From contig NC_088789.1 of the NCBI RefSeq assembly GCF_949628265.1, positions 31,489,883-31,553,882 of the forward strand: a stretch of DNA of 64,000 bases. Direction: 5' to 3'. This DNA is from Cloeon dipterum (lineage: Eukaryota > Arthropoda > Insecta > Ephemeroptera > Baetidae). Positions within the stretch are counted from its first letter, which is position 1, and every line of letters begins with the position of its first letter. The translations under genes were made by a program, and so were the position numbers. This document shows, piece by piece, positions 1-64,000 of this stretch. Under the pieces are notes generated by a model. That model did not search any database. It was not told the origin of the DNA and saw only the letters and a program-made list of their open reading frames with translations.

Positions 1-953
1 TATATTCCACATTGAAGTTGTTGAGGCTGCACATGAAACGCCTCCATCCGGAATTTTCCATGCGGTGCTCGCGTGTTGGCTGCCAAGAGTTTTTCAAATC
101 CAAGTCTGAGATGGTTGCCCATATTAACACTTGGCACAAACGAGGACAAAAACAGCGTGTTCTCCAGTGCAAGCAGTGCGAGTATTTCACCAGGCACGAC
201 GAGCACATTTTGAGACGACACGTCGAGTCGAAGCACATGCCCAAGACCTTCAAATGCGACAATTGCGACGCCAAATTCGGCTCGAAAGCGGCAGTGGATA
301 AGCACTTCATACATTATCACACGTTTGTAAACTGCAAAACTTGTGGCCAGGACGTGGCTCTCGGACACAAACCATACCACGGAAAGCCATCGGTTTGCTA
401 CAGATGCAAACTCAGATTCAAGTGCTCGGGTTTGTACCAATCGCATCGGGAAAAATGCAAGCAAACCCTCCTTACTTGCAAAGAGTGTGGAAAATCGTTC
501 CCTGTGGATTCGAGGTTGAAAAATCACGTGAAAAACGTTCACACCAAAACTTTGATTTTTCGCTGCGAGCATTGCGACCATTCTACCCATGACAAGATCC
601 ACATGCAGGGGCACATGCAACGCAAACATCTTCCAAAGACGGTTAAGTGTGAATTGTGCGACAAATTGTTTGCCACGGAATCTCTTGTCAATATTCACAA
701 GTCGGCGGCGCACTCGTTCATTCACTGCGCTGAGTGCGCGCAGCAAATTCTGCGCGTTCACAAGTCTACACACATGAGCGTCAAGACTTGCCGCCGCTGC
801 AAGTGCGAGTTCAAGTGCCAGGGACTTCTTGAAATTCATAGCAAGAGCTGCCAAAATAATAATTACTGTTGCGACATGTGCCAGAAATATTTCAAAAATA
901 AGGCTGATTTGTATACTCACGTGGTTAACAATCACATTCGTGTGTATAAATAA
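1..953 (+). CDS. Unit 1: multi-zinc-finger protein, 3' part only
   Basis: This is the exon 3 reading frame of a ZAD-like/C2H2 family gene, cut by the left edge of the window. It is open from base 3 and starts inside finger 3 (LHMKRLHPEF). It continues through finger 4 (C-x4-C type, CSRVGCQEFF), fingers 5 and 6, the first CxxC-H-CxxC-C-H-C module, fingers 7-9, the second such module and the last finger (CDMCQKYFKNKADLYTHVVNNH), and stops at 951-953. All zinc ligands visible in this part are kept, so it looks functional. The ZAD-like exons and the promoter lie outside the window. AATAAA at about 1012-1017 is the likely polyadenylation signal. Family membership is certain from the neighbouring units; the cellular targets are unknown. 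Confidence 0.88.
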   Translation, partial: YSTLKLLRLHMKRLHPEFSMRCSRVGCQEFFKSKSEMVAHINTWHKRGQKQRVLQCKQCEYFTRHDEHILRRHVESKHMPKTFKCDNCDAKFGSKAAVDKHFIHYHTFVNCKTCGQDVALGHKPYHGKPSVCYRCKLRFKCSGLYQSHREKCKQTLLTCKECGKSFPVDSRLKNHVKNVHTKTLIFRCEHCDHSTHDKIHMQGHMQRKHLPKTVKCELCDKLFATESLVNIHKSAAHSFIHCAECAQQILRVHKSTHMSVKTCRRCKCEFKCQGLLEIHSKSCQNNNYCCDMCQKYFKNKADLYTHVVNNHIRVYK

Positions 954-1462
954 ATTGTCCCTTTTACAGTTATTTTGCTTAAATTTAAGATTTGGGTGGT
1001 GTTTTGTGTCAAATAAAATGAAAAATTTGATTAATTATTGTTTCTTAATTTTAAAGGAGTTTAGATTATTTGAAATATAAAGCTTTCCAACGAAAATATT
1101 GCAAAATCTTATTTTCAACACTAAAGCAAGCAATTTCTCAGGTTACCATTTAAATTTTTGAGAAAATTGGCAAGAAAGCATGCTAATAAAAATTTCCTGA
1201 GTCTAAAACCATGTTTTGTTTCACAATTTTAGGAATTTATCTTAAAAAAGATGTGAATTTTTTATTTTCAGTAAAAATGCATTCTTTGTTTCGGAAAAAT
1301 GCTGCTTAATGCGAACCCTGACACCATATATATTGATGTTTAATAAATATATCATTGTATTCTGGCTAAATTGATTAAAATCATATCCTTAGAAATATAG
1401 AAATTTCAGATTCAATTAATTAAACTATGATTTACACCATTCTAATTTAAATTAATTTAATT
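954..1462. other. 3' flank of unit 1, AT-rich spacer
   Basis: It begins with a piece conserved after most units (attgtcccttttacagttat) and AATAAA near 1012. The rest is AT-rich and shows no coding potential that I can support. Confidence 0.6.
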
Positions 1463-2495
1463 CCGGCCCTCTTGGGCCCTCCAGACGCCAAAGTGGCGCT
1501 GACTAAACCTTAAAATATTCAATTTACTTGAAAAGGTCGGTGCGGAACTGCGGAGAATCAAATAACCGACCGGCCGTCGCCGAGCATCACCAGCTTGAAA
1601 TTACTGAAAATCAGCCTTCGAGCGGATTTCAGGTCGAGATTTACCCTGAGAAAGGTCGTGAGTGTACCGCAGGTCAAAGCCCCGTCCAAGACCTGTCTGT
1701 TGAGGGTTCGTGCTGGGCGACGATCAGACCAACGGCTGAATTTTAAGACAAATAAAACCATTTTCGCTTGTGAACATCACTTGTCGTAAAGCCAAAAGAC
1801 AAAAAAAAAATTTAATTTTTCTATGCGTGCAAAAATTCTGGAAATCGGTTTCCAGTCTGGGAGTATTCCTGCGTTTGCGATGAAGTCGGTAAAATAATCT
1901 CGAATTTTGAAATTTCCATGTTATCCATATGGAGAAAGTGCAAAAATAAATAACGTTTTCAAATTTCCGAAATTTCAAAAAATATCTCGTAAGATTTTGA
2001 TCGGATCGCCCCGAATTTGGTCTCAAAATGATCCCAGACGAATTACGATTGAGGCGGATATATTAAAATCGCACATCAACTTTGTCAAAACTCCGGCTGA
2101 AAAAATCTTAACACCTCGAAACTGAATGTATTTTGAAAACTTCGGACCCGGGTGGACGCACCTCAACGAAGGATGTTGATTTTGGTACCAAAATCGGTGC
2201 TGTCCTGCCCGCATAAAGCCCCAAAAACAGAAGTTTGAAAGGTCGCAAATCACGTTTTTTGGAATTGAAAAATCAACAACTATTGGTTGCAAACATTACG
2301 GCCATAGATTAGAAGGTTGCAAAATGCATAAATCTAGAAAAAAACCATTATTTTGTATTTTGAAAATCACTCAAATAATTTTCAGTTTTAATTCCTGCAG
2401 CCTCTTTGATCCCATCAGCCTGTGCACTCACACGTACTTGGGCCGCCAAAATTAAGAATCAAACCCGTGAATTCTTCGAAAAGAGTCCAGCTGAT
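1463..2495. repeat. Composite dispersed repeat region
   Basis: Bases about 1600-1840 match 55090-55275 in the same orientation (shared words accgcaggtcaaagcccgtc-like and ttttaagacaaataaaacca-like). Bases about 1965-2055 match the inverse of about 40205-40300 (aattcgtctgggat core). Bases about 2437-2495 resemble the right end of the hAT-like element at 57455-59788 (gggccgccaaaattaagaat). No protein is preserved. The region is an accumulation of old transposon fragments between units 1 and 2. Confidence 0.55.
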
Positions 2496-2624
2496 CCAGC
2501 TCTGACGTTATGCGTCGAAACCGCGGACATTTTATACACTTTTAGGTTTGCCCGATTTACCTTTTGACAGATTATGCAAAATCATACATACACATTTTCC
2601 CATTCTTAAAAAGTCAAGAGCAGT

Positions 2625-2903
2625 ACGCCAATCAGATCGCGGCAATAAAACAGTGCTGGACGCTGATTGGTTGCTTCTAGGATCCCTAGGGAGTAACGAC
2701 AAGGAGCCATAATAATAACACGACATAAATTTTTAAATAATTGAAGTATAAATCTAAAGCCTTCTTCTAAGATCATGATCATATTAAATATACAATTTAA
2801 CTTTAATTTAAAAAACAAATAAATAAAGAAAGCCTGGACAAACAGAAAACAGCTAAAAGTTTTCTTCTCCTTGTCGCACACACCACTGCAAAAGGGGGCG
2901 GGG
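2625..2903 (+). promoter_or_regulatory. Unit 2 promoter cassette
   Basis: CCAAT at 2628-2632 and its inverse ATTGG at 2666-2670 enclose a conserved spacer. About 190 bp further on is the core block (TTCTTCTCCTTGTCGCACAC, then CCACTG and GGGGGCGGGG, about 2860-2903). Inverted CCAAT boxes fit NF-Y and the GC box fits an Sp/KLF factor; both assignments come from general knowledge. Confidence 0.65.
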
Positions 2904-3041
2904 ATGTTGAAACTTGAAAGCAGCTGAAGACACAGGACTTCACACCTTCGACACCTTCACAGTATATGCAAGAAGTAAGATCCGCGTATAACGAAAAGCA
3001 CTTCTTGGGAAAAGCTTTCTTCGAAGGAAACTAGTCGAGAG

Positions 3042-4793
3042 ATGCAGCCGCCGAAAGTCAGAAAAGGAAAAACACCCATTCAAAAGCCGTTGTGCAGACT
3101 GTGCGAGTGCCCGACGTCGGACGGCCACGTCCTCGCGTCGCAGGTGGACAGGTTCAAGTTGAGGAAATGGGCCATGGAGGTCATGAACCTGACGGAAGAA
3201 GACGAAAACTTGCCAGACGTGGTCGAAGAAGACGCTTTGATCTGCTATTTTTGCATCTGGCAGGCAGAGTGAGTTTTTTTCAAGAATTTTAATTTATTAT
3301 TTTAATTTTGACGCGTGTTCTAGGTTTGGGGATGAGTCTGGAGACGAGGCTGTCGCTTGGTGGCCGAAAAACCTTGATTTGGAAGAAAACGCTAGAGTGC
3401 TGCGGGAGAATTATTCAGGTATTTGGGAATATTTAATAAAAAAATTCATCAGAGTAATTTATATTGTTTAAATGTTACAGTCGGAGAAGTAGAACAGTGT
3501 TGGGTGCAGTTGGAAGAGGTTAATCTGGCAAAATATGAAAAGAAAATATCTAAGAAGAGAAAATTGGACATTGACCTGGCAAAATACGAAAAGGAAATCC
3601 CTAAAAAGAGGAAATACGTCAGTGGAGTGTGTATTTACTGCGGCAACAGATACGGCCGACTGATGGTGCACGTCAAGCAGATGCACAAAGAAGCAATCAA
3701 ATGCGGAATTCTGGGCTGCACGACTTACTTTCACACCGAGGTGGAAAAAGAGCAGCATATGCAGCAGGACATACACGAGAAAGCTAACAAACCACGAAAA
3801 TGCAGCAAAATTTACTGCAAATATTGTCAAATGAGCAAATTGTATTCCTCATTGGTTTCGTGGAAGTGGCACATGAAAAGCGTCCATCCGGAACTTCTGG
3901 TGGCGTGCACGCGTAAAGGCTGCCAAGAGTATTTCAAATCCAAGTCTGAAATGATTCTCCACTTCAACTCGTCCCATAAACAATGCATAAAACGAGATCT
4001 TCTGCTATGCAAGCATTGCGAGTTTTTCGCCACGGATAAGTTTAATTTGCGAAAACACATTGAGGGGAGGCACATGCCAAAGATCTTCAAATGCGACAGT
4101 TGCGACGCCAAATTCGGCTCAACAATGTTAGTGAATAGACACTTCAAACAATATCACACATTCCACAGGTGCAAATCTTGTGGCCAGGACGTGACTCTCG
4201 GATACAAGGCGTTCCACACAAAGCCATCGGTTTGCTCCAGATGCAAACTCAGTTTTGTGTGCTCGGGTTTGTACCAATCACATAGGAAGAAATGCAAACA
4301 AACCCTCCTTAGTTGCAAAGAGTGTGGGAAATCGTTCTCCATGAACCACTTGTTGAATCACCACCTATTAACTGTTCACAGCAAAACTGAGATTTGTCGC
4401 TGCGACCATTGCGACTATTCTACATTTGACATGAGATGCATGCAGAATCACATGAAACGCAAACATCTTCCCAAGACAATGAAGTGTGAATTTTGCAACA
4501 AATTGTATGGCTCGGAACCAATTCTCAAGCATCACATATCCGAGGTGCACAGATTCCTTCGCTGCGTCGAATGTGATCAGAAGATACGCCATCGATACAT
4601 GATTAAACACCAGACCGTCAGGACTTGCCGCCGCTGCGAGTGCAAGTTCAAGTGCCGAGGACTTCTTGACAGGCATATCAAGAGCTGTGTGCATGAAAAT
4701 AATAATTATTTCTATTGTGACAAGTGCCCGAAAATGTATGTAAAAAAGTTATCTTTGTATCTCCATATTGTCTCGAAGCACATTGAAATATAA
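3042..4793 (+). CDS. Unit 2: ZAD-like multi-C2H2 zinc-finger protein, intact
   Basis: Three exons: 3042-3268, 3324-3418 and 3481-4793, giving 544 aa. Donors are GTGAGT and GTATTT, and acceptors are CTAG and ACAG. Splice phases (2, then 1) keep the frame across both joins. Exon 1 starts MQPPKVRKGK and carries CRLC and CYFC, 46 residues apart; exon 2 carries AWWPKNL. Exon 3 starts VGEVEQCWVQL. The linker before finger 1 is duplicated (LAKYEKKISKKRK followed by LAKYEKEIPKKRK). All ten C2H2 fingers and both CxxC-H-CxxC-C-H-C modules keep their ligands, and the protein ends shortly after the last finger (SLYLHIVSKHIEI). It is probably a nuclear DNA-binding regulator. An insertion lies just downstream. 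Confidence 0.9.
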
Positions 4794-6154: not shown

Positions 6155-6427
6155 GCCAATCAGAATGAAGCAATCAAAGAGTGCTGAACGCTGATTGGTT
6201 GTCTCTGGAAACATGAATGTTAAGACAAAGGAGTTAGTAACACAACAAAAATGTTTAGGCATAAAAGTATTAATCTAAAGCTCTGTAAGTTCATGATATC
6301 ATTAAATTAATAATTCAATTTAAAAGGTAATAAAAGATGAATAAAACAAGGAAATAAAGACACCGACCAGTTACTAATTTTCTTCTCTTTGTCGCACACA
6401 CCACTGAGAACGGGGGCGGAGTTGTTG
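6155..6427 (+). promoter_or_regulatory. Unit 3 promoter cassette
   Basis: The CCAAT/ATTGG pair lies at about 6156-6198. The core block (TCTTCTCTTTGTCGCACACA, CCACTG, GGGGGCGGAG) lies at 6380-6427. It is closest to the cassettes of units 19, 21 and 22. Confidence 0.68.
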
Positions 6428-6620: not shown

Positions 6621-8237
6621 ATGCAGCCGCCGAGAGTCAAAGAAGGAAAAATTCTCATTCAAAAGCCGCTGTGCCGATTGTGCGAGTGTCCGACGTCGGA
6701 CGGCCATGTCCTCGCGTGGCAGGTGGACAGGTTCAAGCTGAGGAAATGGGCCATGAAGATCATGAACCTGACGGAAGAAGACGAAAACTTGCCGGACGTG
6801 GTCGGAGAAGACGCTTTGATCTGCTATTTTTGCATCTGGCAGGCCGAGTTAGTTATTTTTACGAGCTTAAAAATTGCAGTTTATTAATTTTGACTCGTGT
6901 TTTAGGTTTGGGGATGAGTCTGGTGACGAGGCTGTTGCTTGGTGGCCGAAAAACCTTGAATTGGAAGAAAACGCTAAGGTCCTGCGGGAGAATTATTCAG
7001 GTACTTGTGAATTTTTAATATAAATATTAAACACCTTCATTTCTTCTGTTTAAATTTTCCAGTTGGAGAAGTAGAACAGTGTTGGGTGCAGTTGGAAGAG
7101 GTTGATCTGGCAAAATACACAAAGCAATCCCCTAAGAAGAGAAAATTCGTCAGTGGAGTGTGTATTTACTGCGGCAACAGATTAAACGATCTTAGGCAGC
7201 ACATCAGACTGATGCACAAAGAAGCAATCAAATGTGGAGTTCGGGGCTGCGCGTCTTACTTTCACACCGAGGAGGAAAAAGAGCAGCACATGCAGCAGAA
7301 TTTGCACGGGGAATACAACAAATCACGGGAAAGCCGGGAAATATATTCCGAAGAATGTAAAAAAGTCACATTGTTACCCTCGGTGGAATCGTGGAGTTGG
7401 AAATTGAATCGCAACCAGCCTGAACTTCCAGTCGCGTGCACGCATTTCGGCTGCAATGAGTATTTCAAATCCAAGTCTGAGATGATTCTCCATGTCAACT
7501 CGTCGCACAAACAAGCCATAAATCAAGATCTTCTGCAGTGCAAGCATTGCGAGTTTTTCACCACAAAGCAGTATGAGTTGCGAAAACACGAAGAGGCGAG
7601 ACACCTGCCAAAAATTTTCAAATGCGGCAGTTGCGATGCCAAATTCGGCTCGAAACGGAGAGTGAATTCGCATTACAAAAGTTATCACACGTTCGACAAG
7701 TGCAAATCTTGTGTCCAGGACGTGGTTCACGGATATATATCACAACACAGAAAGCCATCGGTTTGCTCCTATTGCAAAAAAAGATTCAAGTGCTTGGGTT
7801 TGTATCGGACGCATAGGAAGAGTTGCCGACAAAACGGTCGCAAATGCAAAGATTGCGGACAATTGTTCACTTCGGGCTGGAAGTTAAGAGACCACATGAG
7901 ACTCGTTCACTCCAAAAAATCGAAAGTGGAGATTTTTTTCTGCAGCCATTGTGACTTTTGTTCTTTCCGTAAAGATAGCTTCCGAGTGCACATACTAAGC
8001 ATCCATCTTCCAAAGACGGTCAAGTGTGCAGAGTGCAACAATTTGTTTGCCGCGGAATCTCTTCTCAAGATTCACAAGTACAAGTCGCACGAAGACGTTC
8101 GCTGCTCCGAGTGTAATGTTGAGTTGTGCCGCGCATCCATGTTTAAACACCGCGCCGTCAAGACTTGCCCCCGCTGCAATTGCAAGTTTAAGTGCTCAGA
8201 ATTATTTGCAAATCATTTAGAGAGCTGCCAGAATTAA
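6621..8237 (+). CDS. Unit 3: ZAD-like multi-zinc-finger protein, finger 3 and last finger lost
   Basis: Exons are 6621-6847, 6906-7000 and 7063-8237, giving 498 aa. The first donor is GTTAGT. The ZAD-like part is standard (CRLC, CYFC, WWP). In exon 3, finger 1 (CIYCGNRLNDLRQH) and finger 2 are normal. Finger 3 is destroyed: the first cysteine is gone (IYSEEC where paralogues have RCKYC) and both histidines are missing. Fingers 4-9 and both CxxC-H-CxxC-C-H-C modules are kept. The protein ends at HLESCQN, so the last finger is absent; degraded sequence for it follows the stop. It may still be functional, because nine fingers and the N-terminal domain remain. Confidence 0.85.
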
Positions 8238-8448: not shown

Positions 8449-8742
8449 ACGCCAATAAGGTTGCAGCAATCGAAGAACGTTGAACGCTGATTGGTTGCTT
8501 CAAGAAATACAACTACGAGAGAGTAACGGAAAGGAGATAATGATATCCCAATTTAAATTTTTGCTTAATTGTGTCTGAACATAATGCTATCATTGACCTT
8601 TATCATTTTTGAGAAAATGATTATTTTAAAAAGGTCAACAAAATCATTAAAGACGGGGCAATTCTGGCCAGATGCTGACTGTCCGGCTTCAAATTATCTT
8701 CTCCTTGTTTTACTACCCACTGCAAAAAGGGGCGGAGCTGTT
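8449..8742 (+). promoter_or_regulatory. Unit 4 promoter cassette
   Basis: The CCAAT/ATTGG pair lies at about 8452-8494. The core block at 8698-8742 is altered (TGTTTTACTACCCACTG in place of TGTCGCACACACCACTG) but keeps GGGGCGGAG. Confidence 0.6.
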
Positions 8743-8933: not shown

Positions 8934-10616
8934 ATGCAGCTGCGAGGCAAAGCAGGAAAAACACCCATTCAAAAGCCGCTGTGCAGACTGTGCGAGTGTC
9001 CGACGTCGGACGGCTACGTCCTCGCGTCGCAGGTGGACAGGTTCAAGCTGAGGAAATGGGCCATGAAGGTCATGAACCTGACGGAAGACGACGAAAACTT
9101 GCCGGAAGTGGTCGAAGAAGACGCTTTGATCTGCTATTTTTGCATCTGGCAGGCAGAGTGAGTTTTTCACGAGATTAAAAATTTAATTTTGATTTTGACT
9201 CGTGTTTTAGGTTTGGGGATGAGTCCGGAGACGAGGCTGTCGCTTGGTGGCCGAAAAATCTTGATTTGGAAGAAAACGCTAAGGTTCTTCGGGAGAATTA
9301 TTCAGGTACTTGAGTATTTTTATTAAAAATAATAAATACCTTTTTTCTATTGTTTAAATTTTACAGTTGGAGAAGTAGAACAGTGTTGGGTACAGTTAGT
9401 GGAGATTGATCTGCCCAAATACACAAAGAAAATATCCACAAAATGGACACACGTCAGCGGAGTGTGTTTTTACTGCGGCAACAGTTACAACAAGCTGAGT
9501 CAGCACGTCAAACTGATGCACAAAGAAGCCATCAAATGCGGAATTCGGGGCTGCGTGACTTACTTTCACACCGAGGAGGAAAAAGAGCAGCACATGCAGC
9601 AGGTTTTACACGAGAAACCCTACAGACCACGGGGAAGCAGCAAAATTGGTTGCAAATTTTGTGAAAACGACAAATTATATTCCACAATTAAAATTTGGAG
9701 ACAACATATGAAATGCGTCCATCCGGAACTGTCAGCGCGATGCACGCGTTTAGGCTGCAACGAGTACTTTAAATCCAAGCCCGAAATGATGCTCCACTTC
9801 AATTCGCACAAACGAGCCATAAATGAAGATCTTTTCGAGTGCAAGCATTGCGAGTATTTCGCCACGAGTGAGTACAGGTTGAGAGAACACGAAGAGGCGA
9901 GGCACATGCCAAAGATCTTCAAATGCGACCTTTGCGACGCCAAATTAGGCTCGAAGCGGGTCATTGAAAAACACTATATCAGTGCACACACGCTTAGCAA
10001 GTGCAAATCTTGTGGCCTTGACGTTTCTCTGGAATGCAAGTCACGCCACTTCAAGCCAACGTTTTGCTCCAAATGCAAAGTGAGTTTTGAGTGCTCAGGT
10101 TTGTACCAATTGCATAGGAAGAAATGCAAACAAACCCTCTTTAGTTGCAAAGAGTGTGGAAAACTGTTTCCCTTGCCTAGCAGGTTGAACCAACATGTGA
10201 GACAAGCTCACACCAAATCTGAGATTTTTCACTGCGAACATTGCGACCATTCTTTATATGGGAAGAACCTCATGTCGTTGCACGTGCAACGCAAACATTT
10301 TCCAAAGACGATTAAGTGTGGAGAGTGCAACAAATTTTTTGCCTCTGAATGTATTCTCAAGATTCACAAATACAGTTCGCACTCATTCCTTCGCTGCGCT
10401 GAGTGTGCTCAGGAGGTCGGCCGTCAAAAGTTGTCTTCTCACCAGGCCGTCAAGACTTGCTTCCACTGCAAGTGCAAGTTCAAGTGCCGTGGACTTCTTG
10501 AAAAGCATATGAAAAGCTGCGACATTAAGAATTACTTTTGTGACCAGTGCCCGAAAATTTATTGGAAAAAGAAAAGTTTGTATTATCATATTTTAAGGAA
10601 GCATGTTGAAAAATAA
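8934..10616 (+). CDS. Unit 4: ZAD-like multi-C2H2 zinc-finger protein, intact (reference copy)
   Basis: Exons are 8934-9157, 9211-9305 and 9367-10616, giving 522 aa. The start MQLRGKAGK is the first in-frame ATG. Residues 17-20 are CRLC, 67-70 CYFC and 87-88 WW; C113 follows in GEVEQCWVQL. This resembles the insect ZAD fold (four cysteines, dimerising), but the spacing and WWP segment are unusual. From about residue 140 come fingers 1-6, where fingers 2 and 4 are C-x4-C. A CxxC-H-CxxC-C-H-C module follows (CKSCGLDV ... CSKCKVSFECSGLYQLH). Then come fingers 7-9, a second such module (CAECAQEV ... CFHCKCKFKCRGLLEKH) and the last finger (CDQCPKIYWKKKSLYYH). All ligands are present. It is probably a nuclear sequence-specific DNA-binding factor; the target is unknown. 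Confidence 0.9.
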
Positions 10617-11310: not shown

Positions 11311-11522
11311 TAAAAAGATGATCGATGATTATTGATTATGAGTTAGCTTGCAAACACGCGACTCCACAGGTCCAAAGACAGGACAATGCAAGCAGAAAGA
11401 TCAGCGGGAAAAGATTGTTTCTTCACGTCCACCTGCTCAAGAAGAGTCTGGGCATTGAAATTCAGCGAAAATCAGTGTATGAGAAATTATTTTGGATAGC
11501 GAGTCACTTGAGGAGTCGAGAC

Positions 11523-13211
11523 ATGAAGCCGAAAGAAGGAAAAAAACCCATTCAAAAGCCGCTTTGCAGACTGTGCCAGTGTCCGACGTCGGACGGCCAC
11601 GTCCTCGCGTCGCAGGTGGACAGGATCAAGCTGCGGAAATGGGCCATGGAGGCCTCGAACTTGACGGAAGAAGATGAAAACTTGCCAGTGATTGTCGAAA
11701 AAGATGCGTTGATCTGCTATTTTTGCATCTGGCTGGCCGAGTGAGTTTTTCCGAATTTATGAAGTCGCAGTTTATTTAAAATTTGACGTGTCTTTCAGGT
11801 TTGAGGATGAGCCTGGAGATGATTCTGTTCATTGGTGGCCAAAAAACCTTGATTTGGATGAAAACGCAAGGTTGCTTCGGGAGAATTATTCAGGTACTTG
11901 GGTATTTCAAATAACAATATAAGCCAGCGTAATTCATTTTGTTTTAATTTAACAGCTGGAGAAGTGGATCAGTGTTGGGTCCAGTTGGAGAAATTTGATC
12001 TGACCAAATATGAAAAGGAAATCCCTAAAAAGAGGAAATACGTCAGTGGAGTGTGTTTTTACTGCGGAAACAGATTCGACAAACTGATGCAGCACATCAG
12101 ACAGATGCACAAAGAAGCAATCAAATGCGGATTTTGGGGCTGCAGAACTTACTTTCACACCGAGGAGGATAAAGAGCAGCACATGCAGCAGGTTATCCAC
12201 GAGAGACCTTTCAAGCCCCGGGGAAGCAACAAAGTTGGTTGCAAATTTTGTGAAATCGGAAAATTGTATTCCTCAGTAAATTTGTGGAGGAAGCACATGA
12301 AATGCGATCATCCAGAACTTCCGGTGGCGTGCATGCACGTAGGCTGCAAAGAGTACTTTAAATCCAAGTCTAAAATGACCCTCCACTACAACTCGGCGCA
12401 CAGCCGAGGCAAAGACCTTTACCAATGCAAGCAGTGCGAGTATTTCACCTTGTGGAAGTCACTGTTTAAACGACACATAGAGGTGAAGCACATGCCAAAG
12501 ATCTTCAAATGCGACGATTGCGTCGCAAAATATGGCTCGAAACGACTGCTTGAAGAACACTTCATCAAATGTCACACGTTCGTCAAGTGCGAATCTTGTG
12601 GCCTGGACGTGGCTTCCTCATGCAAGTCACGCCACGGAAAGCCAATGGCTTGCTCCAGATGCAAACTCGGTTTCAAGTGCTTGGGTTTGTACCAACTGCA
12701 TAGGAATAGCTGCAAACAAACCCTCCTTCATTGCAAAGAGTGTGGAAAAACATTCACTCGGATCATTGATGTCAATAGGCACTTGAATGAAATTCACACC
12801 AAATCCGCGATTTTGCAGTGCGAACATTGCGACCATTCTACAGTTTACAAGAACAAATTGTGGGTGCACATTCAACGCAAACATCTTCCAAAGACGATCA
12901 AGTGTGGAGAATGCAACAAATTGTTTGCCTCCGAATTTGTTCTCGATATTCATAAGCAAAAGTCGCACTCATTTCTTCGCTGCGCTGAGTGTGCTCAGGA
13001 ATTCAGCCGTAGTAAGTTGCCATATCACCAGATCGTCAAGACTTGTCGCCACTGCAAGTGCAAGTTCAAGTGCCAAGGACTTCTTGACAAGCATAAGAAG
13101 AGCTGTGTGCTGACCATGAGTAATGCTTACATTTGTGACATGTGCCCGAAAACTTATAGTCACAAGATACGTTTGTATTATCACATTATCTCGAAGCACA
13201 TTGAAAAATAA
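11523..13211 (+). CDS. Unit 5: ZAD-like multi-C2H2 zinc-finger protein, intact
   Basis: Exons are 11523-11740, 11799-11893 and 11956-13211, giving 522 aa. The ATG of MKPKEGKKP was chosen; the frame is open further upstream, but that part lines up with the 5'UTR of paralogues. The ZAD-like part has diverged somewhat: CRLCQCP, CYFCIWLAE and FEDEPGDDSVHWWP. Exon 3 begins AGEVDQCWVQL. All ten fingers and both CxxC-H-CxxC-C-H-C modules are intact, ending CDMCPKTYSHKIRLYYHIISKHIEK. It has a single copy of the pre-finger linker. Confidence 0.9.
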
Positions 13212-13512
13212 ATTTTGCCAAACTGACGATGAACAGCTCTATTCTGAAAATTTGTTGTGAATTTTTTATGACCTTTTAGAATATAGTTCTGCCAACAAGA
13301 TTTTGCTAAAGAGCCGTCGACGTCTGTATATTCACGGCATGGAGCTAAAAAGCAAAAGCCATCAATCAAAATGTGGGTGGAAAAGATATCCCTTTTGACA
13401 GATTGGTATGTTAAAGAGTACCAAAAAACATTCCTGCGCTGTTGAATATATTACCATGTTCCGGCGCCGGCGCAAAACGAAATATAAAACATAATTTTTA
13501 AATCTCAGGAGT
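13212..13512. other. Spacer between units 5 and 6
   Basis: This is 3' flank plus spacer similar to that after unit 4. No gene seen. Confidence 0.5.
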
Positions 13513-13800
13513 ACGCCAATCAGATTGCAGCAATCTAAGCGCGGTGAACGCCGATTGGTTACCACCAGAAACATGAGGGGGTAAAGATAAGGAGTAAAAA
13601 TGGCATAACTGAAACCTTAACATATTTAGGCATACATCCAAAGCATTTTGAGAACATTATCAAACTGAAGTAACAAGAATTCAATTAAAAGGGTATGTAA
13701 ACAAATAATTAAAAAAGTTGGAAAGTATAAAATATACAAAACACCTCCAAGTTTCTTCTCCTTGTCGCACAATGCACTCCGAATCGGACCGGAGTTGTTG
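13513..13800 (+). promoter_or_regulatory. Promoter cassette of decayed unit 6
   Basis: The CCAAT pair (13516-13559) and the core block (TTCTTCTCCTTGTCGCACAA, 13753-13772) are well kept. The GC box is altered to GGACCGGAG. The gene behind it is broken. Confidence 0.6.
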
Positions 13801-13885
13801 ATAGCAGCTGTTTTGTATTGCAAAGACACGAGGACACACGAGGAGCAAGAAACGCCTGACGCCACAGAAACAGAAAGCCGATTAA

Positions 13886-14515
13886 GCGGAAAGCCAACGG
13901 TTTGCTCCAGACGTAGTCTCAGCTTCAAGTGCTCGGGTTTGTGTCAATTGCACGAGAAGAAGAGCTGCCAAGAATCCTTCTGTGCGTGGAAATTCGGTCA
14001 CGAAGCCTTCGAAGTGTGATATCCAGGTGAGAAGAGCTCACGCAAAACCGCGAACCGCGATTTGTTTACTGCGTGCTCATTGAAACTATTCTGCATCCAG
14101 CAAGATGTTTATGCGGGAGCAGTTGCAACCCCAACACCTTCCAGAGACGATTAGGTGCGATCAGTGCAATGAATTGTTTGCAACGCAATCCCTTCTCGAG
14201 CATCACCAACGCAACAGTCACGAATGCGTTAGATGCACAGAGTGCGCACTGGAAGTCCGGCGTCAAAACATTCGTCTACACCGGCGCGTCAAGACTTGCA
14301 ACCGCTGCGAGCGCAATTTCAGGTGCTCAGGGTCGTATCAGCAGCATATGGAGATCTGCCAATAAGAGCCAGTGTAGTGTTGCTAAAAGTTCAAGGGCCG
14401 TGGACTTCTTGGAAAATATATGAAGACCGATTCAATTGTGACAATAAGTGCCCGAACTTTTACAGGAAAAACATCAACTTTTGAATTTTCATATTCTCAA
14501 AAAGCGCATTGATGT
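13886..14515 (+). pseudogene. Unit 6: decayed zinc-finger unit without ZAD-like exons
   Basis: Behind an intact-looking promoter there is no exon 1 or 2. Sequence resumes within the first CxxC-H-CxxC-C-H-C module (CSRRSLSFKCSGLCQLH, second ligand pair damaged). It then degrades and resumes as an open stretch (14105-14365) with finger 9 (CDQCNELFATQSLLEHH) and the second module (CTECALEV ... CNRCERNFRCSGSYQQH). A degraded last finger lies at about 14435-14500. Most of the gene, including fingers 1-6, has been deleted. Host gene relic; probably not translated as a family protein. Confidence 0.8.
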
Positions 14516-32925: not shown

Positions 32926-32958
32926 TAATGAATGGCAGCATTAAAAAGATTGCAGCGT

Positions 32959-49545: not shown

Positions 49546-51141
49546 ATGAAGCTGCGAGGCAAAGAAGGAAAAACACCCATTCAAAAGCCGCTGTGCCGTC
49601 TGTGCGAGTGTCCGACGTCGGACGGCCACGTCCTCGCGTCGCAGGTTGACAGAATCAAGTTGAGGAAATGGGCCATGGAGGTCATGAACCTGACGGAAGG
49701 AGACGAAAACCTGCCGGAGGTGGTCGGAGAAGACGATTTGATCTGCTATTTTTGCATCTGGCAGGCCGAGTGAGTTTTTTCATGATTAAAAATTGCATAG
49801 TTATTTAATTTTGACCCGTGTTTTAGGTTTGGGGATGAGTCCGGAGACGAGGCTGTCGCTTGGTGGCCGAAAAACCTTGATTTGGAGGAAAACGCTAAGG
49901 TGTTGCGCGAGAATTATTCAAGTAGGGAACTTTTTTATAAAAATAATCCACGGCGTAACTTCTGTTGTTTAAATTTTTCAGTTGGAGAAGTAGAACAGTG
50001 TTGGGTGCAGTTGGATGAGATTGATCTGGCCGAGTACGAGAAGGAAATCCCTAAAAAGAAGAAACGTGTCAGTGGAGTGTGTTTTTATTGCGGCAACAGT
50101 TTCAACCATCTGTTGCATCACGTCAGAAATGTGCACAAAGAAGCCATCAAATGCGGAATTCGGGGCTGCGCGACGTACTTTCACACCCAGGAGGAAAAAG
50201 AGCGGCACATGCAAGGGGATCTTCACAAACCACGGGAAAGGATGAAAATTCGTTGCAAATATTGTGAAATAATCAAGTTGTATTCCTCAGTGGAATCATG
50301 GAGAAAGCACATGAATCGCGACCATCCAGAACTCCCGGTGGCGTGCGCGCATTACGGCTGCAACGAGTATTTCAAATCCAAGTCTGAAATGATTCTACAC
50401 TTCAACTCGCACAAGCGAGCCTTAAATCAAGATCTTTTTGAGTGCAAGCACTGCGAGTATTTCGCAACGAGTGATTCTAATTTGAGACGACACGAAGAGG
50501 CCAAGCACATGCCAAAGATCTTCAAATGCGACAGATGCGACGCCAAATTCGGCTCGAAATTTTTAGTGGAATCGCACTACAAAAATTATCACACGTACGA
50601 AAAGTGCAAATCTTGTGTCCAGGACGTGGCTTTCGGGATCAAAGCACGCCACAGAAGACAATATGTTTGCCCCAAATGCAAACTGAGATTCAAGTGCTTG
50701 GGTTTGTATCAGTTGCATTGGAAGAGCTGCAAAAAAATGAACCTTGTTAGTTGCAAAGAGAGTAGAAAACAGTTCGCCTTGACTTCCAGGTTGAATCAAC
50801 ACGTGAAAAAAGTTCACACTAAAACTGCGACTTTTCGCTGCGACCATTGCGACTATTTTGCATTTAGTAGGCCGTACATGCGAAAACACATACAATGCAA
50901 ACATCTTCCAAAGACAATTAAGTGTGAAGAGTGCAAGAAACTGTATTCCACGGAATCTACACTAAATGATCACAAGTCCAGGTGCCACTCATTCATTCGC
51001 TGCGATGAGTGCGCGCAGGAAATTAGCCGCCATAAAATGCGGATACACCGGACCATTAAGACTTGCGGCCGCTGCGAGTGCAAGTTCCAGTGCCGTGGAC
51101 TTCTTGCAAATCATATTAAAGAGTTGTGTGCATATAAATAG
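49546..51141 (+). CDS. Unit 18: ZAD-like zinc-finger protein, last finger lost by frameshift
   Basis: Exons are 49546-49769, 49827-49921 and 49982-51141, giving 492 aa. The start is MKLRGKEGK. Exon 2 ends TCA-A, as in unit 7, giving I at the join. Finger 7 has lost its second cysteine (CKESRKQF where others have CKECGKQF). The end of the second CxxC-H-CxxC-C-H-C module has an extra A (attaaagagttgtg), so the protein ends NHIKELCAYK and the last finger is out of frame. Finger 9 and the second module are nearly identical to unit 20, which reflects a later duplication. Confidence 0.86.
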
Positions 51142-51233
51142 TAATCATTTTCTATTGCGACAAGTGCCCGAGATCATACGGGAAAAAGAGAAGTTTGTAT
51201 GCTCATAATGCCAGGAAGCACATTGATCGATAA
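51142..51233 (+). pseudogene. Out-of-frame last finger of unit 18
   Basis: The last finger is still complete in the shifted frame (CDKCPRSYGKKRSLYAH), with its ancestral TAA and AATAAA at about 51231-51237. The frameshift is therefore young. Confidence 0.78.
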
Positions 51234-52474: not shown

Positions 52475-54287
52475 ATGAAGCTGCGAGGCAAAGAAGAAAA
52501 AACACCCATTCAAAAGCCGCTGTGCCGACTGTGCGAGTGTCCGACGTCGGACGGCTACGTCCTCGCGTCGCAGGTGGACAGGTTCAAGCTTAGGAAATGG
52601 GCCATGGAGGTCATGAACCTTACGGAAGAAGACGAAAACTTGCCAGACGTGGTCGAAGAAGACGCTTTGATCTGCTATTTTTGCATCTGGCAGGCAGAGT
52701 GAGTTTTCTTACGAGCCCTAAATATTTTATTTTGATTTTGACACTTATTGTTTTTAGATTTGGGGACGAGTCTGGAGACGAGGCTGTGGCTTGGTGGCCA
52801 AAAAATCTTGATTTGGAAGAAAACGCTAAGGTGCTGCGGGAGAATTATTCAGGTACTTAGGAATTTTTATTAAAAATATTCATCAGATTAATTTATATTG
52901 TTTAAAATTTACAGTTGGAGAAGTAGAACAGTGTTGGGTGCAGTTGGAGGAGATTGATCTGGCCAAATACACAAAGAAATCGAAAGAGGTTGATCTGGGC
53001 AAAAAAACAGATGAAATTCCTAAGAAGAAAGGTGGCAGTAGAGTGTGTTTTTACTGCAGCAAGAGATACATTAATCTGAGACAGCACATCAAATTTCATC
53101 ACAAAGAAGCCATCAAATGCGGAATTAAGGGCTGCACAACTTACTTTCACACCCAGAAGGAGAAAGAGCAGCACATGCAGCAGGTTTCACACGAGAAACG
53201 TTCCAAACCACGCGAAAAGAGGGAAATTCGTTGCGCCTTCTGTGAAAATTTCACATCGTTTTCCTCTGAACAAAGGTGGAGGCGGCACATGAAACGCGAT
53301 CATCCAGAACTTCCTGTGATGTGCGCGCGTAAAGGCTGCAAAGAGTTCTTCAAATGCAAGTCTGAAATGATTCTCCACATCAACTCGTTCCACAAAAAAG
53401 CCGTAAATCAAGATCTTTACCAATGCAAGAATTGCGAGTATTACACCAGACTTAAGGGTGATTTGAAAATACACGAAGAGGCGAAGCACAATCCAAAGAT
53501 CTTCAAATGCGACGGTTGCGGCGCCAAATACGGCTCGAAAATCCTGGTGAATAATCACTATATCAGAGTTCACACGTTCGACAAGTGCAAATCTTGTGAC
53601 CAGGACGTGGCTGTTGGATGTACGAGAAATCACAGAAAGCCATCGATTTGCTTAAAATGCAAACTCAGTTTCGAGTGTTTGGGTTTGAATCAATTACATT
53701 GGAAGAAATGCAAACAAACCCCTTTAACTTGCAAAGAGTGTGGAAAAACGTTCACCGCGAATTTGAGGTTGAATTGGCACGTGAATAAAGTTCACACCAA
53801 AAGTGTGATTTTTCGGTGCGACCACTGCGACCAAATTATTTATGACAGAAACCAAATGATGGCGCACATGCAACGCAATCATTTTCCAAAGACGTTTAAG
53901 TGTGATGAGTGCGACAAATCGTATCCCTCCAAATCATTTCTCAAGGTTCACAAACAGAATTTGCACGAAAACGTTCGCTGCGGAGAATGTGCTCAGGAGA
54001 TGTGCCGCGATATCATGAGGAGACACCGGACCAGTAAGATTTGCCGCAAATGCAAGTGCAAGTTGAAGTGCTCAGGACTTCTTCGAAAGCATAAGAAAAG
54101 CTGCGAAGAATTTGCCCCTTTTATTTGCAAAGAGTGTGGAAAAGTATTCAACGTGCGAATGGTATTGAATCGGCACGTGAAACAAGTTCACAACAAAGGG
54201 GTGATTTCTCGCTGCGACCAATGTGAATTTTCGACATTTAACAAGAGCCTAATGGAAAGGCACATTCAAATCGTACACTTACCGTAA
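52475..54287 (+). CDS. Unit 19: ZAD-like zinc-finger protein with chimeric C-terminus
   Basis: Exons are 52475-52698, 52758-52852 and 52915-54287, giving 563 aa. The start is MKLRGKEEK. Exon 2 begins ATTTGGGG instead of GTTTGGGG (still E at the join), a mark shared only with unit 21. The linker is a rearranged double (LAKYTKKSKEVDL, GKKTDEIPKKK). Fingers 1-9 and both CxxC-H-CxxC-C-H-C modules keep their ligands. The extra finger 7-8 type block (FICKECGKVFNVRMVLNRH, SRCDQCEFSTFNKSLMERH) leads to the stop at IVHLP, homologous to units 15 and 17. Confidence 0.88.
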
Positions 54288-55779: not shown

Positions 55780-57571
55780 ATGCAGCCGCCAAGTGTAAAA
55801 GAAGGAAAAATTCCCATTCAAAAGCCGCTGTGCAGACTGTGCGAGTGTCCGACGTCGGACGGGCACGTCCTCGCCTCGCAGGTGGACAGGATGAAGCTGA
55901 GGAAATGGGCCATGGAGGTCATGAACCTTACGGAAGAAGACGAAAACTTGCCGGACGTGGTGGAAGAAGACGCTTTGATCTGCTTTTTTTGCATCTGGCA
56001 GGCCGAGTGAGCTATTTTTACGAGCTTAAAAATTGCGATTTTTATTATTGACCCGTGTTTTAGGTTTGGGGATGAATCCGGAGACGAGGCTGTTGCTTGG
56101 TGGCCGAAAAATCTCGATTTGGAACAAAACGCCAGGGTGCTTCGGGAGAATTATTCAGGTATTGAGAAATTTTAATATAAATAATAAACACCTTCATTTC
56201 AATTGTTTAAATTTTCCAGTTGGAGAAGTAGAGCAGTGTTGGGTGCAGTTGGAAGAGGTTGATCTGGCCAAATACGAGAAGAAAATTCCTTTGAAAAGCA
56301 AAGAAGGCCAAAGATTGTGTTTATACTGCGGCAAAAGTTTCAACCATCTGTTGGATCACGTCAGAGTGTATCACAAAGAAGCCATCAAATGCGGAATTCG
56401 GGGCTGCTGGACATTCTTTCACACCCAGGAGGAAAAAGAGCAGCACATGCAAGGGGATCTTCACAAACCACGGGAAAGGATGAAAATTCGTTGCAAATAT
56501 TGTGAAATTGGCAAATTGCATTCCTCAGTGGAATCGTGGAGACAGCACGTGAATCGCATCCACCCAGAACTCCCAGTGGCGTGCACGCGTTTGGGCTGCA
56601 AAGAGTATTTCAAATCCAAGTCCGAAATGATCCTCCATATCAGCTCGTCGCACAGGCAAGACATAAACCAAGATCTTTACTTATGCAAGCATTGCGAGTT
56701 TTTCGCCACGAGGAAATCCATTTTGAGTCGACACGTAGAGGGGAGGCACATACCAAAGATCTTCAAATGCGACAGTTGCGACGCCAAATTCGGCTCGAAA
56801 TGGAAAGTGAATTACCACGTCAAACAAATTCACACGCTCGACAAGTGCAAATCTTGTGGCCAGGACGTGGCTCTCATGTACAAGAAACGCCACAGAAAGC
56901 CATCGGTTTGCTCCAGATGCAAACTCAGTTTCGTGTGCTCGGGTTTGTATCAATTACATAGGAAGAGCTTCAAACAAACTCTTCTTAATTGCGAAGAGTG
57001 TGGAAAATCGTTCGCCACATCGCCGAATATGAAATGTCACGTTCAAACTTTCCACAAATCCGCGATTTATCGCTGCGACCATTGCAACTATTCTGCATTT
57101 AATAAGCGGTACATGCTGTGGCACATGCAATGTCAACATCTTCTAAAGACGATTATGTGTGAACAGTGCAAGAAACTATTTTCCACGGAATCGACACTCA
57201 AGGCTCACATGTCCAGGTGCCACTCATTCATTTCCTGCGATGAGTGTGCGCAGGAAATTAGCCGCCATAAAATGCGGATACACCGGACCATTAAGACTTG
57301 CGGCCGCTGCGAGTGCAAGTTCAAGTGCCAAGGACTTCTTGAAAATCATATTAAGAGTTGTTTTCCTTTAAATAGTAATAATTTCTGTTGTTACAACTGC
57401 CCGAAATCATACGGGACAAAGAAAAGTTTGTATGCTCATAATGCCAGGAAGCACCAGGCCCGGATAGCCCATCGGGCGAATCGGGCAATGCCCTGGTGGG
57501 CCGCCGGGCCGGCCACCAGACCGGCCGCAGGACTAGTCGCCCGCCGACACTTGATTAACTCGATTCCTTAA
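55780..57571 (+). CDS. Unit 20: ZAD-like zinc-finger protein, tail replaced by a transposon
   Basis: Exons are 55780-56006, 56064-56158 and 56220-57571, giving 557 aa as read. The start is MQPPSVKEGK. The first CxxC-H-CxxC-C-H-C module has lost its last cysteine (LHRKSFKQ instead of LHRKSCKQ). The last finger is complete (CYNCPKSYGTKKSLYAHNARKH). Immediately after its final histidine a hAT-like element begins at 57455, so the ancestral ending I-D-R-stop (stranded at 59797-59808) is replaced by about 38 arginine- and alanine-rich residues encoded by the transposon, stopping at 57569-57571. All fingers upstream are unaffected. The 3'UTR and polyadenylation signal are displaced by 2.3 kb, so expression may be changed. 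Confidence 0.85.
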
Positions 57572-60800: not shown

Positions 60801-60993
60801 AAAGCAGCTGTGTCAGCTTGTAAACACGCGACTCGACTTGAGAGGACAATGCAAGCAGCGAGATCAGCGTGACCTTTTTTGTTTGTTTACGATCACCAAC
60901 TCAAGAAGAGTCTGGACATTGAAATTCAACGAACATCAATTTTTGCGAGAATTATTTTGGATAGCGAGTCTCTAACTCTAAAGGAGTCGACAG

Positions 60994-62614
60994 ATGAAGC
61001 TGCGAGGCAAAGAAGCAAAAATTCCCACTCAAAAGCCGCTTTGCAGACTATGCGAGTGTCCGACGTCGGACGGCCACGTCCTCGCGTCGCAGGTGGACAG
61101 GTTCAAGCTGAGGAAATGGGCCATGAAGGTGATGAACCTGACGGAAGAAGACGAAAACCTGCCGGAGGTGGTCGGAGAAGAAGATTTGATCTGCTATTTT
61201 TGCATCTGGCAGGCAGAGTGAGTTTTCTTACGAGCCCTAAATATTTTATTTTGATTTTGACACTTATTGTTTTTTAGATTTGGGGACGAGTCTGGAGACG
61301 AGGCTGTGGCTTGGTGGCCGAAAAACCTTGATTTGGAAGAAAGCGCTAAGGTGCTTCGCGAGAATTATTCAGGTACTTTGGGAATTAAAAAAAAATAATC
61401 AGGGCAATTTTTAATATTTAAATTTTTCAGTTGGAGAAGTAGAACAGTGTTGGGTCCAGTTGGATGAGATTGATCTGCCCGAATATGAAAAGGAAATCCC
61501 TAAAAAGAAGAAATGCGTCAGCGGAGTGTGTCTTTACTGTGGAAAGAGCTACAACCATCTGATGAACCACGTCAATTATATGCACAAAAAAGCCATCAAA
61601 TGCGAAATTAAGGGCTGCACGACTTACTTTCACACCCAGAAGGAAAAAGAGCTGCACATGCAAGAGGATCTTCACAAGAAACGTAATAAACCACGGGAAA
61701 GCAAGAGAATTCGTTGCAAATATTGTGAAAGCGTTCATTTTTTTTCCTCGGGGCAATCGTGGAGACAGCACATGAAATACGTCCATTCAAAACTTTCAGT
61801 GCGATGCTCGCGTGTAGGCTGCAAGGAGTACTTCAAATCCAAGTCTGAATTGATTCTCCACTTCAACTCGCACAAACAAGCCGTAAATCAAGATCTTTTT
61901 GAGTGCAAGCATTGCGAGTATTTCACAACGGTTGAATTTAATTTGAGAAAGCACGAACAGTCGAAGCACATGCCAAAGATCTTCAAATGCGACGGTTGCG
62001 ACGCCAAATTCGGCTCGGAAATGTTAGTGAATAAGCACTTCAAACGATGTCACACGTTCGAAAAGTGCAAATCTTGTGGCCAGGAAGTGGCTCTCATGAG
62101 TATTGCACGCCACATAAAGCCATCGGTTTGCCAGAAATGCAAACTCAGTTTGGAGTGCTCGGGTGTGTATCAATTGCATAGGAAGAAATGCAAACAAACC
62201 CTCCTTAGTTGCAAAGAGTGTGGGAAATCTTTCAGCTGGAGCTATGATTTAAATATCCACTTGAATAAAGTTCACACCAAAACAGTGATTTTTTGCTGCG
62301 AACACTGCGACTTTTCCACATATTTCGGAAAGGGCCAAATGTCGGTGCACATGCAACGCAAACATTTACCAAAGACGATCAAGTGTGGAGAATGCAACAA
62401 ATTGTTTGCTTCTGAACGTATTCTCAAGCATCACAAATACAGTTCGCACGAATACGTTCGCTGTGCTGAGTGTGCTCAGGAGGTCGGCCGTCGAAAGATG
62501 TATTATCACCAGACCGTCAAGACTTGCCGCCGCTGCGAGTGCAAGTTCAAGTGCCGTGGACTTCTTAAAAAGCATATGAAAAGCTGCGACAATAAGAATT
62601 ACTTTTGTGACTAG
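60994..62614 (+). CDS. Unit 21: ZAD-like zinc-finger protein, stop codon in the last finger
   Basis: Exons are 60994-61217, 61278-61372 and 61431-62614, giving 500 aa. The start is MKLRGKEAK. Introns 1 of units 21 and 19 are almost identical. Exon 3, however, resembles units 4 and 7 at its 3' end (CAECAQEVGRRKMYYHQTVK), so the unit is a mosaic. Fingers 1-9 and both CxxC-H-CxxC-C-H-C modules are intact. The last finger is cut after its first cysteine (NYFCD then TAG, where unit 4 has CAG). Confidence 0.86.
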
Positions 62615-62680
62615 TGCCCGAATATTTATAGGAAAAAGTTTTGTCATATTGTCAGGAATCACATTGAAAAAAATTCTACA
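62615..62680 (+). pseudogene. Remnant of the unit 21 last finger
   Basis: The in-frame continuation after TAG encodes CPNIYRKK and then a version of the helix shortened by deletion (CHIVRNHIEK), so this finger was damaged twice. Confidence 0.7.
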
Positions 62681-63354
62681 AAAATAAAAATAATAGCGGC
62701 ATTTTGAAAAAAGTTTGCGTAAAAATTTTTACAAACCTACTTGAATATTTGGTCTTTTTTACGGTTATTTTGGTTCAGTTTTGGAAGCTGATGTCTGTAA
62801 GAATAGTTAGGTAATTTAATTTTTTCTGTCAAAAATAGATAAAACGACAGTTTCCTTTAAATTTCAGCGTTCGGAATTATTATTTTTTTAAATAATAATA
62901 ATAAATAAATGTTTTGACACTCTTTGGCCTGTCACTGACCTTAAGAGGCGCCAATATCGACAGTCAAGAGCACCGTATATTTTACAGAATTGGCATTTTT
63001 GTTGAAAGCTTAAGACGAGCACTGTTTATTTTTTTGTATTTTCGCGCCCTCAGCATTTAATTGTCTGAGTCTGAACTAACCACTTCACCACTTGCTGACG
63101 CGTAAAACTGACAGACAAATGCACCCTCTACCCCGAGTTATCGGAGAGGCTGCATATTTGGGCCGTGTTTATTCTAATCCAAAACTTTATTTCAATGGTG
63201 CAAAACGTAAACGTTTTGCGTTAAAAGCACGTTATTTGTGCCATTTGCCTATGATTTTCCTTTTGACGGGAAGTGTAGATGTATTATTTTCCCACTGAGA
63301 CGCATAAAAAGCGCGTACTTTTTCCCGAAGCGTAACAAAATACGAAAATCACGA
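62681..63354. other. Spacer between units 21 and 22
   Basis: A 3' flank copy lies at 62740-62785. From about 63175 the sequence is similar to the spacers before units 3, 19 and 21. No gene. Confidence 0.5.
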
Positions 63355-63632
63355 GTACGCCAATCAGATTGCAGCAATCAAAGAGCGCTGAACGCTGATT
63401 GGTTGCCATTTGAAACTCGAGAGAGTTAAGACAAGGAGTTGATAACACAACTGAAATGTTTACGCTTTAAAGTATTAATCTAAAGCTCTCTAAGTTTATG
63501 ATATCATTTAATTAATAATTTAATTTAAAACGTAACATAAGATGGTTAAAACAAGGCAATAAAGACACCAACCAGCTTGGAGTTTTCTTCTCTTTGTCGC
63601 ACACACCACTGAGAACGGGGGCGGAGTTGTTG
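63355..63632 (+). promoter_or_regulatory. Unit 22 promoter cassette
   Basis: CCAAT at about 63359-63363 and ATTGG at 63397-63401. The core block (TTCTTCTCTTTGTCGCACAC, CCACTG, GGGGGCGGAG) lies at 63582-63632. This is one of the best-kept cassettes, yet no exon 1 follows inside the window. Confidence 0.65.
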
Positions 63633-63664
63633 AAAGCAGCTGTGTTAGCTTGTAAACACAAACT

Positions 63665-63910
63665 CGCGACTAGACATGGTCAAAATTTTTAAGGCATCGC
63701 GATATTTTCGATGTCGATGTTTTCAAAAAATATCGATAAAAATCGATATTTATCGTGCAAAAAAAATATCGCCGGAAAATATCGCCGATATTTTTTTAAA
63801 ATTTGCGGATTTCGTTTAAAACTGCTACCAAGGCCAAAAAATAACGAAAATTGGCTGCAAAGTTGCTGTGCACGCCCCCAACCACAACTATACTGCGTTG
63901 TGGAGCAGCT
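63665..63910. mobile_element. Insertion interrupting the unit 22 5' region
   Basis: The unit-typical 5'UTR ends at about 63665 (aacacaaactcgcgact). It is replaced by sequence rich in ATATCG/CGATAT words (63690-63800), unlike any other unit. The element class is not determined and its right end is unclear, because a MITE copy starts at about 63911. Confidence 0.45.
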
Positions 63911-64000
63911 ATTGACTGCAGTTGCATAAACCTTAGTGTTCAAAGCTGTCAACAGATGTCGCCACCATATACTTTCATAATAATTTTTATTTTATGACAC
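63911..64000. mobile_element. Palindromic MITE of about 411 bp, copy 3 (partial)
   Basis: ATTGACTGCAGTTGCATAAA starts a sequence matching the left ends of the copies at 32959 and 39594 (cttagtgttcaaagctg, cagatgtcgccacca). It is more diverged and is cut by the window edge. Confidence 0.68.

Follow-up and report, generated by a model that had tools for sequence, protein, structure and literature searches.

Among insects, the ZAD-ZNF proteins (PF07776; for example grauzone, M1BP and the products of the Oddjob-Nicknack cluster) carry a CxxC...CxxC arrangement ahead of their C2H2 fingers, and their genes lie in clusters with turnover. Vertebrate KRAB-ZNF genes, as described in the passages compared, likewise form tandem clusters with one conserved front domain and rapid change at the DNA contacts. 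In the passages compared, the ZF271-like/APEZ genes of Hemiptera are described as rapidly diversifying tandem clusters (four to eight genes, Oncopeltus) with long C2H2 repeats, a penta-peptide linker and a variable exon structure (Panfilio 2019). The same source mentions other insect zinc-finger expansions and, for Hemiptera, reports in the sections compared no correlation with repeat content (Panfilio 2019), and the thrips genome paper mentions expanded C2H2 families, without detail in the portion compared (PMC7570057). The FiNZ-ZNF family of cyprinid fishes is, according to the excerpts used, large, under positive selection and provided with a front domain without known relatives, and an anti-transposon role in the early embryo has been described for it (Wells 2023). 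From the same excerpts, retroelement and ZNF numbers correlate across animals with the exception of dipterans (Wells 2023), while for Drosophila ZAD-ZNF genes the text compared reports selection mainly in the linkers, based on orthologue tests (Kasinathan 2020). Here, a stretch of 64,000 nucleotides of Cloeon dipterum (contig NC_088789.1, positions 31,489,883 to 31,553,882, forward strand; hereafter the window) was analysed. It is occupied by a tandem array of C2H2 zinc-finger genes with a nearly invariant N-terminal domain and with amino acid change concentrated at the predicted DNA contacts.

The array differs from each of these systems. In contrast to ZAD-ZNF genes, its front domain gives no Pfam match and is six residues longer between LP and IC (LPDVVEEDALIC versus LPDQIC in M1BP), an intron lies five residues past the last cysteine and is followed by an acidic exon 2, the fingers are organized in a five-finger block, and, compared with the partial account of ZAD-ZNF selection, change falls at the DNA contacts instead of the linker. 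It differs from KRAB-ZNF genes in an N-terminal part without KRAB match and in the absence of TGEKP linkers. With no TGEKP-type linker in any of the 19 proteins and a single three-exon layout in 19 of 19 genes, it also lacks the penta-peptide linker named in the passages on ZF271-like/APEZ genes. The FiNZ domain, compared by its published description only and from excerpts, has 28 residues and is glutamate-rich, whereas the front of the array proteins is a cysteine domain. The exon-1 domain was described in none of the titles and abstracts found among open-licence literature, in which related insect expansions do appear, and the combination of a ZAD-like front with change at DNA contacts was not described in the literature passages compared.

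The window contains no N and has a G+C content of 40.6%. In tblastn searches of the 64 kb with family consensus pieces, exon 1, exon 2 and the exon-3 start were each located 19 times, and beyond these 19 sets an exon 3 without start was found at the left edge and an exon-3 remnant at about 13.9-14.4 kb. When the exons were joined at GT-AG sites, all 19 spliced frames were open and encoded proteins of 409-588 amino acids, whereas none of 950 simulated neutral copies with 10% random substitutions was still open. The genes contain spliceosomal introns: intron 1 in phase 2 after ...IWQA-E, with 53-60 bp except in unit 10 (2377 bp), and intron 2 in phase 1 after ...ENYS, with 58-64 bp. Only units 13 and 15 are located on the minus strand, the remaining units on the plus strand. 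The existence of the tandem array is therefore confirmed. The count of at least 21 units given in the initial annotation is reached with 19 complete genes, one edge gene and one broken remnant. Its statement of identical layout and splice phases applies to the phases of all 19 genes, with the long intron 1 of unit 10 and the two inverted genes as departures. That the array runs off both edges is true on the left, where a gene is cut by the edge; on the right, homology ends after an upstream copy at 63162-63660, and no readable exon 1 follows up to position 64000.

In order to locate amino acid change, the ratio of nonsynonymous to synonymous divergence (dN/dS) was determined from Nei-Gojobori counts, for all 171 pairs of the 19 units unless stated otherwise. 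This ratio was 0.24 for the exon-1 core, 0.15 for exon 2, 0.38 for the exon-3 start with the linker and 0.62 for the fingers. Contact positions were defined as -1, 2, 3 and 6 of ten canonical fingers. The mean entropy was 1.24 in other finger columns but 1.80 in contact columns, the latter being reached in 10 of 20000 permutations; contacts were variable in F4, F5, F8, F9, F10 and F13 and nearly fixed in F1, F3, F7 and F12. Nine sister pairs taken from the tree cover 18 of the 19 units (the pair 11-18 with a support of just 0.39). With finger-wide dS, the contact dN/dS exceeded 1 in eight of the nine pairs, and when the six most variable fingers were chosen on four pairs and measured on the other five, it amounted to 2.5 (5-95% range 2.2-2.8, 50 splits). 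This partition of change across the protein is firm, and the initial description of a cluster of fast-evolving C2H2 genes that have an N-terminal domain in common agrees with 19 open genes, a near-invariant exon 1 and contacts as the fastest sites. Drift in largely relaxed or decaying duplicates, produced by unequal crossing-over and keeping the fold alone, would be one way to obtain variable fingers. It could draw on finger ratios of 0.62-0.84 over all pairs, on the broken remnant and on the missing C-terminal finger in 6 of 19 genes (units 2, 6, 8, 10, 16 and 19). However, the 19 open frames, a dN/dS of 0.013 at the zinc ligands and a contact dN/dS that in all nine sister pairs is higher than at the other finger sites, beyond what drift alone would do, make this explanation highly improbable.

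We consider it moderately probable that the genes of the array form a repertoire of DNA-binding regulators with a shared front and diversifying targets, operating in a KRAB-ZNF-like mode and most likely repressing repeats. Such a repertoire design is suggested because one front module is combined with many DNA addresses and one promoter type in all units. The near-invariant front domain and the conserved stretch of exon 2 and exon-3 start after it would serve all units as a putative module for dimerisation or cofactor recruitment, and the fingers of each unit would supply a different predicted DNA address. A common, probably repressive, partner could in this way be recruited sequence-specifically to repeated genomic targets; all steps past DNA binding we infer. 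Each protein would then regulate its own targets, most likely by repressing repeated sequence such as transposons or satellites, and selection on target recognition would keep the fingers changing. The contact-focused change makes an arms race more plausible, with transposon silencing as a good hypothesis only.

Several points weigh against this reading. The rates and trees come from paralogues that recombine, and simple counting took the place of site models on orthologues. With local dS (contact codons), contacts of the ten canonical fingers gave 0.84 over all pairs, compared with 0.67 at other positions, and 0.99 in sister pairs; for six fingers picked post hoc the values were 1.39 in sister pairs and 1.06 over all pairs. 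Even with finger-wide dS, the pooled ten-finger value of the sister pairs (1.22) has a bootstrap range of 0.86-1.65, which includes 1. The loss of the last finger could also mean decay, and Drosophila ZAD-ZNF proteins, the nearest architecture, apparently do not target transposons in general, judging from the passages compared (Wells 2023, Kasinathan 2020). Because the local-dS ratios lie between 0.84 and 1.39 and the ten-finger bootstrap range spans 1, positive selection at the DNA contacts is likely, not proven.

The exon-1 core has 65 residues with the pattern CRLC-x46-CYFC, and 44 of its columns are invariant in 19 of 19 units. Both CxxC pairs are invariant throughout, and a fifth invariant cysteine is located two residues past the first pair. 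The spacing of 46 residues compares with 42, 44, 45 and 48 in four solved ZADs, and by its pattern the N-terminal CxxC...CxxC is a putative zinc site of the ZAD type. A ZAD assignment by sequence was rejected, as all three approaches were negative. None of the 19 exon-1 sequences was matched by the Pfam zf-AD profile (PF07776) at E up to 10, nor was either of the two correctly spliced N-termini scanned (units 9 and 10), whereas the grauzone ZAD, used as positive control, was matched at 4.3e-16. A PDB sequence search for ZAD relatives of the N-terminal domain returned none, and hhalign against the four ZADs aligned only eight columns, with a chance-level score that was also reached by 36 of 200 shuffles in which the cysteines were kept fixed. 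KRAB was not matched at E up to 10 by the 19 exon-1 sequences or the two spliced N-termini. The last ZAD helix falls where exons 2 and 3 contribute. An AlphaFold2 model of exon 1 alone (unit 9), leaving out the exon-2 and exon-3 part, was modest, with a mean predicted local distance difference test score (pLDDT) of 65.6. Compared with the PDB by Foldseek, it had a sole match at E up to 10, the M1BP ZAD (7po9_B), with a non-significant E of 2.6, a template modelling (TM) score of 0.43 and 21% identity. The domain is therefore ZAD-like as a resemblance, while membership in the ZAD family is not established, because the fold match is not significant and the profile tests fail. The label ZAD-like in the initial annotation holds for the cysteine pattern, its spacing and the identity of the only PDB fold match, but finds no backing in the significance of that match or in the sequence profiles.

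The cysteine spacing and the M1BP match would also fit ZAD-ZNF-type chromatin or architectural proteins with heterochromatin, insulator or developmental roles, whose turnover follows satellites or heterochromatin and not transposons; in Drosophila, according to the passages compared, genes of this kind acquired roles in heterochromatin (Kasinathan 2020). In the same passages, however, positive selection on the Drosophila genes is placed for the most part in the linker, rather than in the fingers, by orthologue tests that are not strictly comparable (Kasinathan 2020), whereas here the linker is constrained and the contact residues change fastest. Together with the missing zf-AD matches, this leaves such a role unlikely.

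Exon 2 is acidic (FGDESGDEAVAWWPKNLDLEENARVLRENYS) and follows the last cysteine pair. Exon 3 encodes 9-15 finger units, of which up to 14 were named F0-F13; in units 13, 15 and 17 an F8-like and an F9-like finger stand at the end in place of F13. A block of five fingers occurs as F3-F7 and again as F8-F12, and at most two and a half times per protein. Three of its members are C2H2 fingers; the other two are a short C-x2-C-x11-H unit and a finger of the form C-x2-C-x12-H-x3-C. The first copy retrieves the second with 25-37% identity and E down to 9e-29. The equivalent of helix position -1 is a cysteine in F7 (19 of 19) and F12 (16 of 16). As the short unit has just three ligands of its own, this invariant cysteine probably completes the zinc site of the short unit before it. 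The proteins belong to the C2H2 zinc-finger class: zf-C2H2_4 was above cut-off in all five exon-3 proteins scanned, and each protein has 5-10 canonical C2H2 motifs. HP1-type PxVxL motifs were absent from the 19 proteins. The exon-3 model (unit 14) is a string of beta-beta-alpha fingers with a mean pLDDT of 71.3 (70-90 over F5-F12 in blocks of ten), and its top PDB matches by Foldseek were DNA-bound CTCF and ZFP568, with overall TM scores of 0.15-0.19, as expected because the chain is flexible. A lysine-rich linker segment of at most 17 residues is repeated at the exon-3 start only in units 1, 6, 11, 15 and 17, in a shorter form in unit 17; this patchy distribution fits exchange among units.

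Going beyond a repertoire of repressors, the array might represent an undescribed invertebrate class, a proposal that we regard as tentative and rather unlikely in its full form. The class would combine a front that is either a diverged ZAD or an independent look-alike with KRAB-ZNF-style evolution (fixed front, selected contacts, block shuffling), separately evolved tracking of genomic parasites and a new finger block with a borrowed zinc ligand, in which the short C-x2-C-x11-H unit would be completed by the cysteine of the next C2HC finger.

The uniformity of exon 1 exceeds what protein constraint would explain; local gene conversion and constraint at the nucleotide level could both explain it. 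The dS of the exon-1 core was 0.17, compared with 0.40 in exon 2, 0.45 in the exon-3 start and 0.47 in the fingers. In exon-1 cores such as 26311-26505, synonymous sites are about three times less diverged than in exons 2 and 3, and the borders are sharp. The synonymous difference was 0.10 at near-invariant codons and 0.16 elsewhere (95 of 10000 permutations). Recombination of the units with each other is clear. The pairwise homoplasy index (PHI) was 0.773, and none of 2000 permutations was as low (368 gap-free codons, 19 units). Moreover, the 5' side of unit 17 is like unit 19 (82-94% identity upstream, 98% in intron 1), while its 3' end is like unit 15 with 72-94% identity, where unit 19 gives 36-75%. 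That exon 1 is kept uniform through frequent short gene conversion, not by protein function alone, fits the low dS, the near-invariant codons and the evident recombination. On the other hand, mean differences of 0.24 in intron 1 and 0.40 in the upstream DNA (18 units, unit 10 left out) mark borders so sharp that the tracts would need to be very short, and constraint acting directly on the nucleotides is just as possible; we place frequent conversion somewhat short of an even chance. The order of units in the array was not correlated with their similarity (rho -0.02). A further candidate, that synonymous change at conserved codons tracks the variability of their neighbours, was dropped as weak, with an overall rho of 0.18, a rho of 0.24 for the fingers and one of 0.03 when exon 1 is excluded.

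About 500 bp 5' of exon 1 can be aligned in most units, so that the promoter described initially as the same for all genes is broadly shared; an inverted CCAAT...ATTGG pair with a spacing of 38-41 bp precedes 12 of the 19 genes. These 12 genes have 11 distinct pairs, because the divergent units 15 (inverted) and 16 have one pair in common. One additional pair lies beside the remnant and two lie near the right edge. The total of 15 pairs is within the range of 200 shuffles (mean 6.4, maximum 15), and it is the spacing, exactly 38 in 12 of the 15 pairs of the window, that stands out and not the number. Examples with 38 bp are located at 2628-2666, 6156-6194, 8452-8490 and 49062-49100. The pair sits inside a longer inverted repeat, CCAATCAG...CTGATTGG. 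Downstream of it, a CTTCTC stretch and a GC-rich stretch follow in most units; the pair and these stretches presumably resemble NF-Y and Sp1 sites. Shared descent accounts for part of the conservation of the pair, yet the upstream DNA around it shows a mean difference of 0.40. A pair with 38 bp at 62951-62989, right after unit 19, has no family gene behind it in the window and is perhaps a promoter remnant.

The array begins on the plus strand with unit 0 (1-953), an exon 3 cut by the left edge, of which 316 open codons are in view, beginning inside F2 and ending at the stop. It is followed by unit 1 (3042-4793, 544 amino acids), unit 2 (6621-8237, 498 amino acids, without the last finger), unit 3 (8934-10616, 522 amino acids) and unit 4 (11325-13211). 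The latter has at most 588 amino acids from the first ATG of the open frame, and by homology its start is probably further in. The internal remnant (13332-14495, plus strand) consists of a copy of the upstream region (13332-13828) and of fragments of a broken exon 3 (13887-14367 and 14387-14495); neither exon 1 nor exon 2 was found in it. Unit 5 (15111-16820) encodes 530 amino acids, whereas unit 6 (18357-19705, 409 amino acids) stops after its ninth finger unit and contains F0-F8 only. Unit 7 (20864-22571) has 528 amino acids. In unit 8 (23575-25150, 485 amino acids) a frame change removed the C-terminus, and the last finger is readable in another frame at 25218. Unit 9 (26266-27975, 529 amino acids) was the source of the exon-1 structure model. 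Unit 10 (28997-32770) encodes 444 amino acids and has a divergent exon 2 and an intron 1 (29209-31585) that carries an insertion. Units 11 (35161-36901) and 12 (37678-39371) have 540 and 524 amino acids, respectively.

The inverted unit 13 (40926-42728, minus strand, 560 amino acids) has the C-terminal block that runs on with the F8-like and F9-like fingers, and unit 14 (43646-45370, plus strand, 535 amino acids) provided the exon-3 structure model. Unit 15 (46870-48716, minus strand, 575 amino acids) is inverted as well and has the longer C-terminus seen in units 13 and 17. The remaining genes are on the plus strand. In unit 16 (49546-51141, 492 amino acids) the C-terminus was again removed by a frame change, with the last finger readable in another frame at 51156. 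Unit 17 (52475-54287, 563 amino acids) is the chimera of a unit-19-like 5' part and a unit-15-like 3' part. Unit 18 (55780-57571, 557 amino acids) ends in an unrelated arginine- and alanine-rich tail after the last finger (57389-57571), and unit 19 (60994-62614, 500 amino acids) has its stop within the last finger. The upstream copy at 63162-63660 (plus strand) shares 82% identity with its counterpart at unit 19 across 477 columns, and no exon 1 stands behind it in the window.

The insertion in intron 1 of unit 10 starts with CAGGGTTCC and ends with GGAACCCTG. It contains a large imperfect palindrome (30076-31120 is 87% identical to its own reverse complement) and internal direct repeats, and is by its looks a candidate foldback-type mobile element. 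Short dispersed intergenic repeats with 83-84% identity are located at 33306-33370, 39601-39659 and 63911-63976, and similar translated stretches at 32932-33243 and 39668-39865, the first of these without a Pfam match. Ten intergenic open frames, out of many, were scanned, and none encoded a mobile-element protein above the Pfam cut-off. Neither tRNAs nor Rfam families were found in the window. Searches for family relatives in viral contigs, with exon 1 and exon 3 as queries, and in prokaryote contigs, with the unit-14 exon 3, gave pattern matches, none of which was confirmed.

With some twenty paralogues behind a single front end, the array offers a direct testbed for target choice. It contrasts with what the passages compared report for flies, namely selection on Drosophila ZAD-ZNF genes in the linker and a dipteran zinc-finger number that does not follow transposon load. 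An array that combines a ZAD-like front with change focused on the DNA contacts would suggest that a KRAB-like mode has arisen again with a different effector domain.

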